Below are positions 38,825 to 46,241 of a stretch of 64,000 nucleotides of DNA, piece after piece (positions within the stretch are counted from its first letter, which is position 1; each line of letters starts with the position of its first letter). A program made the translations under genes and the position numbers. A model generated the notes under the pieces. The model saw only the letters and a program-made list of their open reading frames with translations. It had not been told where the DNA came from and did not search any database. The stretch covers positions 1 through 64,000 of the forward strand of contig JANYDK010000080.1 of NCBI GenBank assembly GCA_025363655.1, read 5' to 3'. Source of the DNA: Deltaproteobacteria bacterium. GTDB taxonomy: Bacteria > Myxococcota_A > Polyangia > Polyangiales > JADJMO01.

Positions 38825-38932
38825 TTTGTCGCAGTTTCTCCGACGCTCGACGACGGCTATTGCCTTGTTCGCGAGGTCGCGCAACTCTTGCCTGGCAGGC
38901 GCGAACACGTCGGCGAACGAGGGAGAGGTTGC

Positions 38933-41900
38933 ATGTCAGCGCGTCGTCCGGGCACTGGGCCTCTGGGCTCGATCGTCCTTGCTCTCGGGATGCTCCATGG
39001 ATGCGCCAACGACGCACCCGAGTCGACGAACGCGGCAGGCGGCGACGCCCAGACAGACGCCTCGACCTCGAGCTCGTCGACCTCGGCCAACGCGAGCAGC
39101 GAGAAGTCGTCGCGCGCCAAAGCGATCATCGAAGAGCTGAAGCTGCACCAAGAGTTCGTCGGTCATCTCGGCGGAGGTGCGACGCTCGCGAAGATCCCGA
39201 GCACGGCGGGAAAGGTCGGCGCCTTCCAATTGGCGGCCGATGGCACTCCGGCATCCAGATTCACGGTTCTCGGTAGCGACAGCCTCCTCGTCGAGCTCCC
39301 CACCGACGCGAGCGGCCCCGTGCACCTCGGAATTTCCGGCCGTCCGCAGGTCTTCGTCGAGCTGACGCCGCTCGAGACGACGCACGTCGTCGCCGAGCCC
39401 TACGAGGGCGCGCTCGTCTTCGGCGAAGCGGCAACCGACACCGACGTCGTCCACATCGTGGAAAAGACGCGTATGGAGGAGATCCACGTCCTTCGTTCGC
39501 GAAGTGCGCCGACCGTGCTTCGGTCCACCCTCACCACCGGCGCCGAGGTTCGCGAGGTGCGGGTGCGAGGCGGCGTCATCGAGGTCGTCGACATCACGGG
39601 GAACGTGGTGCTGACGAGCGCGCCGCTCTTCGCCGTCGACGCGAAGGGCGTTCGTCGCGAGGTCGTCGCGCGCCTCGAGACCAGCGGCGAGGCGCGCGTG
39701 CTCGTCTGTGAGCTCGATACGACAGGGCTCGAATTTCCCATCGCCGTCGATCCGGTGTGGACCGCGGCGACCCCGATGCCGACTGCGCGCTCGCACGCGA
39801 CGTCGATTCCCCTGCCCACAGGTCCGATCCTGGTGGCTGGCGGTCTCCTCGGCGACGGCACCACCACCGGGAACACCGAGCTGTGGGATCCGGGCACCGG
39901 CGTTTGGGTCACCAAGGGCTCGATGGTGAAGAAGCGCCACTCGTTCGGCGCGGTCAACATCGCCGGCGGACGCGTCTTCGCAGCAGGCGGCTACGACTCC
40001 GGCGGCGTTCCGGTGAACGCCTACGAGGTCTACGATTCAGGCACCTGGACGCAGAACTCGGGCTTTCCGCACGCCGACGGCTTCGTCGTCAAGCTCGCGA
40101 GCGGGCGCGTGCTCGTCGGCGCCGGCTACACGTCGGCGACCGCGTCCACGAACGGCGTCCACCTCTGGGATCCCGGCAGTGGTTGGGTGACCCCGGATCC
40201 CAGCGGAATGACGACCTCGCGCGTCGCTCCCTCGGCGACGCTGCTCCCGAGCGGCAAGTTGTTCGTCGCCGGCGGCCTCTCGCTCTCCGGCAGCGCGTTC
40301 AACACCACGGAGGTCTTCGATCCGCCGGCGAACAGCTTCAGCGGTGGACCGACGATGAGCACGCCGCGCGGACGGCACTTCGCGGTGCTGCTCTCGTCGG
40401 GCAAGGTCTTGGTCGGCGGTGGCACGGGCGCTTCGGGTCCGCTGTCGAGCGCCGAGCTCTACGATCCCGGCACCAACACCTGGGCCGGCGCTGCCTCGAT
40501 GAGCACGCCGCGCGTCGGTGCGGCATGCGTCCTCCTCGGCAACGGCAAGGTCCTCGTCGCCGGCGGCAGCCCCGCCAGCGGGTCTCTGCTCGACACGGCC
40601 GAGGTCTACGATCCTTCCGTCAACACGTGGACGAACGTGGGCACGATGAGCGCGAAGCGCGCCAACATCGCCAACATGGGCGCGTACATCGGCGGCATCA
40701 GCGCCCTCATCCCCGGCGGCGCCATCTCGGCCGGATCGCCCGCGCCGGTGACTGCCAGCGCCGACATCTACAACGACGGCGCGGCCAACGGCGCCGCGTG
40801 TCTCACGAATTCGGCCTGCGCTTCGGGCTACTGCGTCGACGGCGTGTGTTGCAACACCGCCTGTGGCGGGCAGTGCGAGGCCTGCAACGGTACGCCTTCC
40901 GGCACGTGCAAGGCCGTCTCCGGTGCGCCGCACGGCAGCCGTACGCCGTGCGTCGGTTCGGGCGTTTGTCAGGCGCAATGCGATGGAACGGTCACCACCG
41001 CCTGCGCGGCACCTCCTACCGCCACCACGAGCTGTGGCACGGCCTCGTGCAGCGGCGGCATCGCCACCTCGGCGCGCTCCTGCGACGGCACCGGCGTCTG
41101 CACCTCGGCGTCGTCGACCACCTGCTCTCCGTATCTTTGCCAGAGCGCCCCGGGCACCGGATGCAAGTCGAGCTGCACCGTCGCCGCCACCGACTGCGCC
41201 TCCGGTTACAACTGCATCGGCGGCATCTGCAAGACCGGCGGCGGGCTCGGCACCGCTTGCTCGGTCGCGTCCGATTGCGGCAGCGGCAACTGCGTCGACA
41301 ACGTCTGTTGCAGCACCGCATCGTGCAGCGCGCCGCAGAAGTGCAACGCCAACGGCCTCGGCACCTGCAGCAAGCCACTCGGCGCCGTTTGCAGTGTCGG
41401 TGGCGAGTGTGGCTCGACGTATTGCGTCGACTCGGTGTGTTGCGACAAACCGTGCTCCGGTCAATGCGAGGCGTGCAGCGTCACGCCGGGCTCCTGCAGG
41501 CCGGTCGTCGGCGCGACCATCGGCACGCGCACCGCGTGCAGCGGCACGGGCTCGTGTCAGGCGACCTGCGACGGCAACGACACCACCACCTGTCGTTCGG
41601 TCCCCGGCTCGTCGACGAACTGCGCCGCCGCCACCTGCAGCAGCGCGATCGCCACCACGGCGCGCTACTGCGATGGCGCGGGCAGCTGCGCCAGCGGCAC
41701 CACGCTCGGCTGCGGCGCTTACGTCTGCGGCGCCACCACCTGCCTCACCTCGTGCACCACCGACACCCAGTGCAGCAGCGGATACTTCTGCAGCGGCGGC
41801 GCTTGCACGCTCAAGCTCACCAACGGCTCGGTGTGCACCACCGGCGCGGGCAACCAGTGCCAGAGCGGCAACTGCGTCGACGGCGCGTGTTGCACGAGCT

Positions 41901-44545
41901 CGTCTTGCACCGCTCCCGCGACCTGCAACGCCAACGGGCTCGGCACTTGTGCCCGTGCGCTCGGCGTCACCTGCACCTCCGGCGCCCAGTGCGCGGCGGG
42001 CAATTGCGTCGACGGCGTCTGCTGCAACTCGAGCTGTTCGGGACAATGCGAGGCCTGCGACGTCGGCGGCAGCTCCGGCACCTGCAGCGCAGTCGTCGGC
42101 TTGCCGCACGGCACGCGTACGACCTGCACCGGCACCGGGGCGTGTCAGGCGCAATGCGACGGCTCGAATCACCTCGCGTGCGGCACCTTCCCTGGCGTCT
42201 CGACCATTTGCGCGGCGGCGACGTGCGCGTCGGGCTCCTCGACACCGACGCGTCTCTGCAACGGCGGCGGCACCTGCACCGCGGCCTCGGCCTCGAGCTG
42301 CGGGGCATATTTGTGCAACGGCACGACCGCCTGCAAGACCACGTGCACGCCGGCGACCGGCGCCACCGACTGCGCAACGGGCTATTTTTGCAGCGGATCG
42401 AGCTGCATCACGACCGGCGCGGCGGGAACGGTCTGCAGCTCGGCTGGCCAGTGCGCGAGCGGCAACTGCGTCGACAGCGTCTGCTGCACGAGCACCTCGT
42501 GCACCTCGCCGCTGAAGTGCAACGCCAACACCACCGGCACGTGTAGCAAACCGAACGGCACCACCTGCACGCTCGGAACCGAGTGCGGCTCGGGCAACTG
42601 CGTCGACGGCGTCTGTTGCAACCTCGCGTGCAGCGGGCAGTGCGAGGCTTGCGACATCGGTGGAAGCGTCGGCCAGTGTCTCCCCGTCGTCGGCACGCCC
42701 CACAGCGGCGTCACTTCGCGCGCGAGCTGCACCGGAACGGGCACCTGCAAGGCGAGCTGTGACGGCAGCAATCGCATCGCCTGCGGTGCACCACCGGGCA
42801 CCTCGACGGTCTGCGCGGCGGCCAGCTGCGCCACCGGAAGCGCGACCCCGACCGCCTATTGCGATGGCATCGGCGCCTGTGGCGCGGTCACCTCGTCGAG
42901 CTGCGGCGCGTACATCTGCGGCGGAACGTCGTGCAAATCGAACTGCACGAGCATCAGCGACTGCGCGACGGGCTTCTACTGCAACGCAGCGAGTTGCGTG
43001 CCCAAGCTCTCCCTCGGCGTCACTTGCAGCGCGGGCACCGAGTGCACGAGCGGCAATTGCGTCGACGCCGTCTGCTGCTCGAGCAGCTCGTGCGGCGCCG
43101 GATTGAAGTGCAGCTCGAAGGGCGACGGCACCTGCAGCAAGCCCCTCGGGACGACGTGCTCGACCGACAGCGAGTGCGGGTCGGGCAAGTGCGTCGACGG
43201 CGTCTGCTGCGACTCGGCCTGCAGCGGCCAATGCGAGGCGTGCGATGTCGGCGGCTCGGTCGGCAAGTGCTCGGCGGTCATCGGCAAGGTCCACGGCACG
43301 GTGCGCACCGCGTGCACCGGGAGCGGCGCCTGCCAGTCGTCGTGCAACGGCTCCGATCGTCTCTCGTGCGGCGCGGTGCCTGGAACCTCGACGATTTGCG
43401 GTCCGGCGAGCTGCACCACCGGCAGCGTGACGCCGGCTTCGTTCTGCGACGGGCTCGGCTCGTGTGCGGCGGCCTCGCCCTCCAGCTGCGGCGCGTACCT
43501 CTGCGCGGCGACGACGTGCAAGTCGGCGTGCACGACCAGCACCGACTGCGCCACGGGCTACGGCTGCAAGGACGGCCGCTGCGTCACCACCGGCGCGCTC
43601 GGGACGATTTGCACCGACGACACGCAGTGCAAGAGCACGCACTGCACGCCGAGCGGTCCGGGCGGCAACGTCTGCTGCAACGCCGCGACCTGCCCGACGG
43701 GCTCGATTTGCGCCGACGCGTCGTCGCCCGAAGCAGGCAACTGCGTGAAGGACAACGGACAGACCTGCGTGACGTCGGCCGACTGCAAGAGCGGCTTCTG
43801 CGTCGACGGCGTCTGCTGCGACGGCGGATGCACCGGACAGTGCGAGGCGTGCGACATCCCCGGCGGGCTCGGCAAGTGCACCGGCGTCTCCGGACCGCCG
43901 CACGGCTCGCGCACGAAGTGCGACGGCGGCGCCGCCGACGTTTGCAAGGCGCTGGCGTGCGACAGCTCGAAGGATCGGAGCAAGTGCGTCGGCTTCCTCA
44001 ATGGCCCGAGCACGGAGTGCACGGCGGCCTCGTGCAAGGACGGGTCGGCGACGACGGAGGCCTTCTGCGACGGCAGCGGAACGTGCAAAGCGGGCGCGAC
44101 GTCGAGCTGCGGAACGTTCGCGTGCGGCGACAAGACCTGCAAGGACAAGTGCCTCGTCGACACCGACTGCGGCGCCGGCTTCATCTGCAACAAGGACAGC
44201 GGCAAGTGCGTGCCGCCGACGGCCACCTGCAGCGCCGACGGCACCAGCTCGGTCGCGGCCGACAAGACGGTGAAGCCGTGCGGACCGTTCCGCTGTGACA
44301 CCTCGACGGGCAATTGCTACACGAAGTGCACGGCGAGCGACGAGTGCGCGCCGGGCGCGACCTGTGACGGAACGGCTTGTATTGCCGACCCGACTGGCGA
44401 TGCCCAGAGCGGTGGTGGCTGCGCGGTCTCGCCGAGCGACTCGGGCAGGCGCGAAGGCAGTGAAGGCAACGGCGGCGCAGGCCTCGCCGGTCTCGTGGTC
44501 GGTGCAGCGGCCCTCGCGATCGCCGGTCGCCGTCGGCGCCGCTGA
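38933..44545 (+). CDS. Giant kelch plus Cys-repeat surface protein with lipobox and MYXO-CTERM-like tail
   Basis: A 1870-residue protein from ATG 38933 behind GGGAGAGG. A signal peptide with lipobox (LGMLHGC) opens it. Residues about 60-270 are a beta-rich N-terminal region. About 275-590 hold around six kelch/galactose-oxidase-like repeats (GKVLVGGGTGASG; LYDPGTNTW; VYDPSVNTW). About 620-1825 hold six Cys-rich repeats of 194-203 residues, each with CVDGVCC...CSGQCEACD, PHGxRTxC, CDGxGxC and CGAY motifs; repeat starts lie at 40832, 41423, 42005, 42599, 43190 and 43799. The end has GGGC, a Gly/Ala hydrophobic helix and RRRRR, like MYXO-CTERM sorting tails. It is likely an outer-surface fibre or adhesin. 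Confidence 0.9.
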   Translation: MSARRPGTGPLGSIVLALGMLHGCANDAPESTNAAGGDAQTDASTSSSSTSANASSEKSSRAKAIIEELKLHQEFVGHLGGGATLAKIPSTAGKVGAFQLAADGTPASRFTVLGSDSLLVELPTDASGPVHLGISGRPQVFVELTPLETTHVVAEPYEGALVFGEAATDTDVVHIVEKTRMEEIHVLRSRSAPTVLRSTLTTGAEVREVRVRGGVIEVVDITGNVVLTSAPLFAVDAKGVRREVVARLETSGEARVLVCELDTTGLEFPIAVDPVWTAATPMPTARSHATSIPLPTGPILVAGGLLGDGTTTGNTELWDPGTGVWVTKGSMVKKRHSFGAVNIAGGRVFAAGGYDSGGVPVNAYEVYDSGTWTQNSGFPHADGFVVKLASGRVLVGAGYTSATASTNGVHLWDPGSGWVTPDPSGMTTSRVAPSATLLPSGKLFVAGGLSLSGSAFNTTEVFDPPANSFSGGPTMSTPRGRHFAVLLSSGKVLVGGGTGASGPLSSAELYDPGTNTWAGAASMSTPRVGAACVLLGNGKVLVAGGSPASGSLLDTAEVYDPSVNTWTNVGTMSAKRANIANMGAYIGGISALIPGGAISAGSPAPVTASADIYNDGAANGAACLTNSACASGYCVDGVCCNTACGGQCEACNGTPSGTCKAVSGAPHGSRTPCVGSGVCQAQCDGTVTTACAAPPTATTSCGTASCSGGIATSARSCDGTGVCTSASSTTCSPYLCQSAPGTGCKSSCTVAATDCASGYNCIGGICKTGGGLGTACSVASDCGSGNCVDNVCCSTASCSAPQKCNANGLGTCSKPLGAVCSVGGECGSTYCVDSVCCDKPCSGQCEACSVTPGSCRPVVGATIGTRTACSGTGSCQATCDGNDTTTCRSVPGSSTNCAAATCSSAIATTARYCDGAGSCASGTTLGCGAYVCGATTCLTSCTTDTQCSSGYFCSGGACTLKLTNGSVCTTGAGNQCQSGNCVDGACCTSSSCTAPATCNANGLGTCARALGVTCTSGAQCAAGNCVDGVCCNSSCSGQCEACDVGGSSGTCSAVVGLPHGTRTTCTGTGACQAQCDGSNHLACGTFPGVSTICAAATCASGSSTPTRLCNGGGTCTAASASSCGAYLCNGTTACKTTCTPATGATDCATGYFCSGSSCITTGAAGTVCSSAGQCASGNCVDSVCCTSTSCTSPLKCNANTTGTCSKPNGTTCTLGTECGSGNCVDGVCCNLACSGQCEACDIGGSVGQCLPVVGTPHSGVTSRASCTGTGTCKASCDGSNRIACGAPPGTSTVCAAASCATGSATPTAYCDGIGACGAVTSSSCGAYICGGTSCKSNCTSISDCATGFYCNAASCVPKLSLGVTCSAGTECTSGNCVDAVCCSSSSCGAGLKCSSKGDGTCSKPLGTTCSTDSECGSGKCVDGVCCDSACSGQCEACDVGGSVGKCSAVIGKVHGTVRTACTGSGACQSSCNGSDRLSCGAVPGTSTICGPASCTTGSVTPASFCDGLGSCAAASPSSCGAYLCAATTCKSACTTSTDCATGYGCKDGRCVTTGALGTICTDDTQCKSTHCTPSGPGGNVCCNAATCPTGSICADASSPEAGNCVKDNGQTCVTSADCKSGFCVDGVCCDGGCTGQCEACDIPGGLGKCTGVSGPPHGSRTKCDGGAADVCKALACDSSKDRSKCVGFLNGPSTECTAASCKDGSATTEAFCDGSGTCKAGATSSCGTFACGDKTCKDKCLVDTDCGAGFICNKDSGKCVPPTATCSADGTSSVAADKTVKPCGPFRCDTSTGNCYTKCTASDECAPGATCDGTACIADPTGDAQSGGGCAVSPSDSGRREGSEGNGGAGLAGLVVGAAALAIAGRRRRR

Positions 44546-44562: not shown

Positions 44563-45417
44563 GTGGGAAACGTGACTAGGCTCGGTATCGTGGAAGCGCG
44601 CGCGATTCGAACCGTCGAAGACTGGGCGCGGGCCTACGTCGAGAGTGATTCGCTCTCGCACAAGCTGACGCCGCCGCCGTTGCCTGCGATCTACGAAGAT
44701 GCGCCGCGCGCGTTGCGCCTCGATTGCCCGGGTCGTCCTGCCGAGCTCCACGTGGAGATGCACGCCGAAAAGACGCGCGGGCTCGGCAGCGCGCGCAATC
44801 GAGCGCGAGCGATGCACACGTTCTTCCATCACGAGCTGCAAGCGGCCGAGCTGATGCTCTGGGCGCTGCTCGCGTTTCCCGAGACGCCGCGACCCTTTCG
44901 TGAAGGGCTGGTGCGCATCGCGCTCGACGAGGTGCGCCACATGAACCTGTACGCGCGCCACGTCGAGCATCTCGGGTTTCACCTCGGCGACTTCCCGGTG
45001 CGCGACTGGTTCTGGACGCGCGTGCCGAGCTGCGTCGACGCCGCCAGCTTCGTCGCGGTGATGGGCCTCGGGCTCGAGAGCGCCAACCTCGATCACGCGC
45101 CGCTCTTCGCAGCTCGTTTCCGCGCTGCGGGAGACGAAGAAGGTGCCCGCGTGCAAGAGTTGGTCGGGCTCGAAGAGATCGCCCACGTCCGCTTCGGCGT
45201 GCGCTGGTTCTCGGTGCTCTCCGGCGGCGAGCCGGGAGCGCTCGATTTCGACCACTGGCGATTGGCCCTCCCCCCGCCGCTGAGCCCGCGGATGATGCGC
45301 GGTCAGCCGATCGAACGGGCGGCTCGACTCCGCGCCGGATTGCCCGAAGAATTTCTCGAGAGGCTGGCGTCATGGGAACTGCAAGAGACCGCGCCCAGCG
45401 CCGCGCCTTCGTCCTGA
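44563..45417 (+). CDS. DUF455 family, ferritin-like protein
   Basis: A 284-residue protein from GTG 44563. It is recognised as DUF455 (PF04305) by HVEMHAEKTRG, HTFFHHELQAAELMLWALLAFP, ALDEVRHMNLYARHV and LGDFPVRDWFW. Glu/His residues in HHELQAAE, DEVRH and EEIAHVRFGVRW are placed as in ferritin-like di-iron helical bundles, so a metal-dependent oxidase or hydroxylase is plausible. Its function is not established. It overlaps the next gene by 46 bases, implying that the two products act together. Confidence 0.85.
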   Translation: MGNVTRLGIVEARAIRTVEDWARAYVESDSLSHKLTPPPLPAIYEDAPRALRLDCPGRPAELHVEMHAEKTRGLGSARNRARAMHTFFHHELQAAELMLWALLAFPETPRPFREGLVRIALDEVRHMNLYARHVEHLGFHLGDFPVRDWFWTRVPSCVDAASFVAVMGLGLESANLDHAPLFAARFRAAGDEEGARVQELVGLEEIAHVRFGVRWFSVLSGGEPGALDFDHWRLALPPPLSPRMMRGQPIERAARLRAGLPEEFLERLASWELQETAPSAAPSS

Positions 45418-46241
45418 ACCTCGACGCCGATCTCGAGCTCGGCGCGGGACCCGGATATCGACCGAGCCGTCGGGTGCTCGCGGCGATGACGGCGAACGAG
45501 ACGCCGCTGCGCGCGTTGCTCGACGAAGGCGACGTGATCATCGGCGACGAGACCGAGGTCGGATCGCTCCGCGGTTTCGTCGGACACGCGTTCTGCCCGA
45601 CCCCGCGTGCGGTCGCGCTCATGCGACGAGCAGGCGCCGAGCCCGCGCGCCACCCGTCGGTCGAGGTCTTACGCACCGTCGCCTCGCGGGCGTTCGGCTT
45701 CTCCGCGGAGCGGGGCCTTCCTGGGGCGCTGTTCGCCAATCGCTTCGAGCTCGTGATCGAGACCCTCGCGAAGGCGCCGCCCATCGGAAGGGCCTGGCGA
45801 CTCAAGCGAGCGTACGGCATGGCCGGCCGAGGTCATCGGACGATCGCCCCCGGTGAGCCCTCGACCGCCGACGCGGCTTGGATCCGTGCGTCGATGCCGC
45901 AAGGCCTGGTCGTCGAGCCCGAGGTGCGCATCGTCAGCGAGCTCGGTCTCCACGGCTGGCTGGAGGAGGATGGCGCGCTCGGGGCCGGAGCCGTCGTCCG
46001 ACAACGTTGCGACGCACGCGGCGCTTGGATCGCGAGCGAACGGCATCTCTCGGTGCACGCGGGGCGGCTCGGCGAAGAGCTCGTCGTGGTCGGCCGCGAG
46101 CTGCATCGAGCCGGATTTTTCGGGCCTTTCGGGATCGATTCCCATGAGTACGAGGTCGAAGGGGGACAGGCGTTCCAACCGCGGAGCGAGATCAATCCGC
46201 GGTACTCGATGGGCTGGGCGGTGGGGTACCTCGGGAGGTGA
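45372..46241 (+). CDS. ATP-grasp-like enzyme
   Basis: A 289-residue protein overlapping the DUF455 gene by 46 bases. ATP-grasp character is seen in WRLKRAYGMAGRGHRTI (nucleotide-binding Lys and Gly loop), LVVEPEVRI (strand with Glu), FGPFGIDSHEYEVEGG and the end SEINPRYSMGWAVG, where Glu and Asn usually bind Mg2+. The N-terminal about 110 residues (LNLDADLELGAGPGYRPSR; FVGHAFCPTPRAV) resemble a preATP-grasp domain. Such enzymes join a carboxylate to an amine or thiol, so a role in peptide-like or natural-product synthesis with DUF455 is plausible. Substrates unknown. Confidence 0.7.
   Translation: MGTARDRAQRRAFVLNLDADLELGAGPGYRPSRRVLAAMTANETPLRALLDEGDVIIGDETEVGSLRGFVGHAFCPTPRAVALMRRAGAEPARHPSVEVLRTVASRAFGFSAERGLPGALFANRFELVIETLAKAPPIGRAWRLKRAYGMAGRGHRTIAPGEPSTADAAWIRASMPQGLVVEPEVRIVSELGLHGWLEEDGALGAGAVVRQRCDARGAWIASERHLSVHAGRLGEELVVVGRELHRAGFFGPFGIDSHEYEVEGGQAFQPRSEINPRYSMGWAVGYLGR

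Follow-up and report, generated by a model that had tools for sequence, protein, structure and literature searches.

A DUF455 ferritin-like protein and an ATP-grasp protein form a recurrent, often fused gene pair and a candidate two-enzyme module

Two overlapping genes in the DNA of a Deltaproteobacteria bacterium raise the question of what a ferritin-like DUF455 protein and an ATP-grasp-like enzyme might do together. They lie in a window of 64,000 nt (contig JANYDK010000080.1 of assembly GCA_025363655.1; positions refer to this whole stretch), and an initial annotation had proposed that the two proteins are very likely made together, that they would be a natural pair for modifying a small molecule or peptide and that no known pathway can be assigned to them. 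As that annotation had it, both genes are on the + strand, the DUF455 gene (gene 1) at 44563..45417 and the ATP-grasp gene (gene 2) at 45372..46241, and they share 46 nt at 45372..45417 (+), stop codon included, an arrangement pointing to translational coupling. The length of the overlap is set by the ATG of gene 2, because no other start codon close to the conserved N-terminus can be used; a Shine–Dalgarno-like GAGAGG, read by eye, lies within gene 1 at 45358..45363 (+), 8 nt 5' of that ATG. Gene 1 encodes 284 amino acids if started from GTG 44563, but its homologues start about nine codons downstream of that position in the alignment, so that GTG 44590 is the likelier start; moving it there does not affect the overlap. 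In most related loci, the two genes overlap by 1 to 46 nt or nearly abut. Scans for sigma-70 promoters and terminators gave no matches. The gene preceding the pair (38888-44545) ends 17 nt before it and encodes a large Cys-rich repeat protein of 1885 amino acids, with Kelch-like repeats at the N-terminus and a Gly-rich stretch, a hydrophobic segment and an Arg-rich tail at the C-terminus; it looks like a surface protein.

The identification of gene 1 as a ferritin-like DUF455 protein with Glu and His metal residues stood up well. The protein matches PF04305 (DUF455) with an E value of 4.8e-45 and 154.5 bits, against a Pfam gathering cut-off of 34.3, and its AF2 model (pLDDT 93.4) is a four-helix bundle with helices at residues 77-104, 110-136, 160-188 and 192-219; in the literature, the DUF455 fold has been assigned by remote homology. 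The predicted diiron ligands (44833..45186, +) form a complete set of the pattern E, ExxH, E, ExxH, with all six residues intact: E91 (44833), E123 (44929), H126 (44938), E172 (45076), E205 (45175) and H208 (45184). Three of the four motifs, E123xxH126, E172 and E205xxH208, align in a profile of 22 homologues with residues of bacterioferritin 1nf4 that we take to be its iron ligands, and the spacing points to E91 as the ligand contributed by helix 1. The putative ligands are invariant in all 67 gene pairs that we inspected, E91 in the 66 that have a residue at that position, and the non-ligand residues H90, E96, Y130 and N175 are conserved as well.

The structural neighbours of gene 1 are less decisive about its role. 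The best matches of the model in the PDB are structures of Dps-like proteins, aldehyde-deformylating oxygenase, mini-bacterioferritin, rubrerythrin and bacterioferritin, all at Z scores of about 14-15; aldehyde-deformylating oxygenase reaches 14.5 and bacterioferritin 14.1, and with values of 13-15 for both kinds, the Z scores do not discriminate an oxygenase from a bacterioferritin. A ferritin-like fold serves iron storage and peroxide defence too, which counts against reading gene 1 as an oxidase, and the DUF455 protein might instead store iron or remove O2 or peroxide, supplying or protecting an oxygen-sensitive ligase partner. Bacterioferritins, Dps-like proteins and rubrerythrin scoring on par with oxygenases would fit such a role, as would an ordinary DUF455 gene of Sphingomonas that adjoins genes for peroxiredoxin and erpA. 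Yet the fact that the protein pairs exclusively with a single ligase and is fused to it in many genomes, as described below, and the conservation of the four non-ligand residues fit a dedicated active site better, and ATP-grasp enzymes are not known to be generally oxygen-sensitive, which also counts against it; we regard iron handling as quite unlikely. From its fold model and conserved residues, gene 1 is most likely a ferritin-like diiron oxidase or oxygenase.

Gene 2 on its own matches no family in Pfam or NCBIfam, and its initial description as an ATP-grasp-like enzyme was nevertheless confirmed by a profile of 30 homologues and by the AF2 model (pLDDT 94.4). Searched against the PDB, the profile finds BesA (8yi6) as the best match with an E value of 2.7e-4, followed weakly by PurK and PGM1, and among the 30 homologues, 6 match the Pfam ATP-grasp family PF02222 (best 6e-5) and 5 match DUF3182; the ATP-grasp motifs do therefore align in profile searches. 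The best 50 structures among the matches listed for the model are all ATP-grasp enzymes. VIA-align ranked the pheganomycin peptide ligase PGM1 (3wvr) at the top with Z 19.2 over 262 residues, followed by BesA with Z 18.9 over 266 residues, a Streptomyces peptide ligase (8ynd, Z 18.1) and, lower down, S. aureus SAOUHSC_02373 (7r8q, Z 16.3), DcsG (16.0) and D-Ala ligases (about 15). By structure and by profile alike, the nearest relatives of gene 2 are thus the PGM1/BesA amino-acid ligases. By their general description or their entry titles, PGM1, BesA, the Streptomyces peptide ligase, SAOUHSC_02373 and DcsG are amide-bond makers. A predicted Mg-ATP site at 46137..46202 (+) comprises D256 (46137), E273 (46188), N275 (46194) and R277 (46200); across the inspected pairs, the corresponding residues are D in 67/67, E or D in 67/67, N in 66/67 and R in 67/67, and the glycine-rich loop G152-R153-G154 is conserved. 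Together, the fold and these residues make gene 2 most likely an ATP-dependent amide ligase.

The pairing of the two genes is not peculiar to this genome, and they were found as neighbours or fused in others. Of 56 relatives, 38 carry the ATP-grasp gene, and a strong DUF455 match is present in the same 38 and in one further genome (G002), where it sits at a contig edge. Extending this to 282 genomes of the phylum, we found, among the matches listed, the ATP-grasp gene in 143, a strong DUF455 in 140 and both in 136, with DUF455 only in 4 and ATP-grasp only in 7 (Fisher P 8.5e-66, a value that ignores shared ancestry). The four DUF455-only cases are a protein of another subfamily (G147), a genome with a weak ATP-grasp match (G106, E 1.5e-4) and two genes at contig edges (G167 and G253), and none of the inspected cases among the 282 genomes shows a DUF455 of the module's subfamily without an ATP-grasp partner. 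The members paired with the ligase score about 105-176 bits to PF04305, and the ordinary DUF455 of G147 (L146:7630-8775), which has no ATP-grasp partner, scores 328 bits; the paired proteins therefore form a distinct subfamily. Two of the seven ATP-grasp-only genomes are cut by a contig edge and four or five appear real; as no DUF455 was detected in these, the ligase may act alone there. Loci L170, L171, L168 and L169 keep the ATP-grasp gene with no DUF455 detected. Candidate substitutes upstream of the ATP-grasp gene were rejected: in G168 and G244, the long frames are out-of-frame readings of an oxidoreductase gene and of a hydrolase-like gene, and in G154 and G260, the preceding gene is sulfatase-like. 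By eye, we recognised no replacement oxidase in these four genomes.

The arrangement of the pair varies. Among the matches listed, and with one genome carrying two copies counted twice, 60 pairs are fused in one open frame, 42 lie on the same strand within 300 nt, 19 on the same strand farther apart, 14 on different contigs and 2 on opposite strands; as the distances were measured between profile matches, many of the 19 distant pairs are probably adjacent genes. Profiles confirmed 22 fused proteins among the 67 inspected pairs. Sixteen fused open frames were read whole (the fusion in G040 is an ORF of 724 amino acids), and in most of them an SxGRPPxV-FxPxxExE-type junction precedes the N-terminus of the ATP-grasp part. 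Both sets of active-site residues are conserved alike in the fused, adjacent and unlinked forms of the 67 pairs. On the ATP-grasp tree, which was built by a quick method and has weak deep branches, the label fused or separate switches four times, and at least two of the switches are forced by well-supported branches. In two genomes (G015 and G030), a gene seemed to separate the pair; the gene called in G030 is on the opposite strand, the same-strand overlapping ORFs seem spurious in both genomes, and neither yielded a recognisable operon member between the pair.

These patterns bear on whether the two genes have separate roles and lie side by side only through chance or common descent. Descent can keep neighbours together, and counts from related genomes are not independent. 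That account is already contradicted by repeated fusion or fission, by retention of both genes when unlinked and by their nearly exclusive co-occurrence, and we consider it highly improbable. The DUF455 and ATP-grasp genes are coupled, through overlap, co-occurrence and fusion, in agreement with the early proposal that they are made and function together. Because the genes travel together, often fused, in about half of the sampled phylum genomes, they very likely perform two steps of one reaction.

For what that reaction might be, we favour, as the rather probable explanation, a two-enzyme module in which a diiron oxidase or oxygenase and an ATP-grasp amide ligase would yield an oxidised amide derived from amino acids. 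The DUF455 diiron protein would oxidise an amino-acid-like substrate with O2, and the ATP-grasp protein would turn a carboxylate into an acyl phosphate, to be joined to an amine; either step could come first, and the product would be an oxidised amide or dipeptide-like compound. Family membership and conserved sites suggest catalysis and amide-bond formation, and the product would be a small molecule. The module reading is further supported by the nearest structures: those of gene 1 are diiron proteins, aldehyde-deformylating oxygenase among them, and those of gene 2 are amide-bond makers. Against it, the absence of a recurring third gene is unusual for a secondary-metabolite pathway: in neighbourhoods of 9-18 kb, we found no third gene recurring across families. 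A broader proposal, which we put forward only tentatively, sees in the pair an undescribed core module of metabolism or signalling, widespread in this phylum and often encoded as a single bifunctional protein, which by itself would make oxidised amide-linked metabolites of a new class.

The known systems nearest to the pair resemble it in part, and we agree with the initial view that no known pathway can be assigned. BesA, an L-propargylglycine--L-glutamate ligase, although the best sequence-profile match of gene 2, shares 20% identity with it in the structural alignment and has a chain of 458 residues against 289, and its substrate is not transferable. The BesA pathway also uses a diiron oxidase, BesC, which is heme-oxygenase-like and not a DUF455 protein. 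The L-aspartate--L-methionine ligase LdmS (NF047900) and SAOUHSC_02373 are, we presume, one protein; a Bacteroidota relative of the ATP-grasp protein matches LdmS with an E value of 8.4e-8, below the LdmS cut-off, and its locus differs from the module in having no DUF455 partner. An ATP-grasp protein of Parabacteroides (L153:7476-8684) with an N-terminal FNPGHE motif is related to the module's ligase, and weakly to LdmS, and has no adjoining DUF455. The mangotoxin mbo system resembles the module in combining a diiron oxidase with amino-acid ligases to give an oxidised small peptide, but its diiron enzyme has a heme-oxygenase-like fold rather than that of the ferritin-like DUF455, and it is a bigger cluster of separate genes (PMC13185094). 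The pairing of a diiron oxidase with an ATP-grasp ligase is indeed known for the heme-oxygenase-like fold (PMC13185094; PMC2922099), and its DUF455 version appears to be undescribed in the literature searched, which lay outside subscription journals. The module would bring ferritin-like DUF455 into a pairing hitherto described for heme-oxygenase-like enzymes and give an orphan DUF a place as one of two enzymes in a pathway that can be tested and that is present in about half of the sampled phylum genomes. The natural fusions offer one expressible gene with a fixed partner and two mutable active sites.

The similarity to PGM1 raises the alternative that the pair modifies a protein or ribosomal peptide, the ATP-grasp enzyme adding an amino acid or cross-linking and the diiron enzyme oxidising the polypeptide. 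PGM1, the top structural match, attaches a non-proteinogenic amino acid to a core peptide made by the ribosome (PMC8939145), and wide conservation without a biosynthetic cluster would fit a housekeeping protein target. PGM1 shares 15% identity with gene 2. The module has no precursor peptide gene nearby; up to 2.5 kb from either gene, the only conserved clusters of short ORFs were out-of-frame shadows, cast by the pair itself or by neighbours that close relatives have in common. This speaks against a peptide target and leaves room for a protein encoded elsewhere, and we hold the alternative as a whole to be unlikely. Membership in the graspetides, a class of RiPPs, was likewise rejected because of the missing precursor. 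The early suggestion of a small molecule or peptide as target drew no support from the neighbourhood: across the phylum, the pair has no recurring neighbour that encodes a precursor peptide or would donate an amine or a carboxylate.

Outside the phylum, viral contigs contained no matches to the module, and plasmids yielded nothing but DUF455 proteins of the ordinary kind and a single unpaired ATP-grasp protein from Bacteroidota; in the one plasmid record that we inspected, from an alphaproteobacterium, the DUF455 gene has no annotated ATP-grasp gene next to it. A scan of a genome collection returned only a MAG labelled Archangium, where the pair is about 175 nt apart. Within the phylum, the pair is unlinked in one family (f26), where the DUF455 gene lies about 0-30 nt downstream of a gene for 5'-deoxyadenosine deaminase in at least eight genomes (loci L135, L137, L139, L141, L155, L156, L157 and L161). 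Two of the deaminases were tested and scored 554-566 to NF005557, against a cut-off of 522. As a lead only, this adjacency possibly hints at an adenosine-derived substrate.
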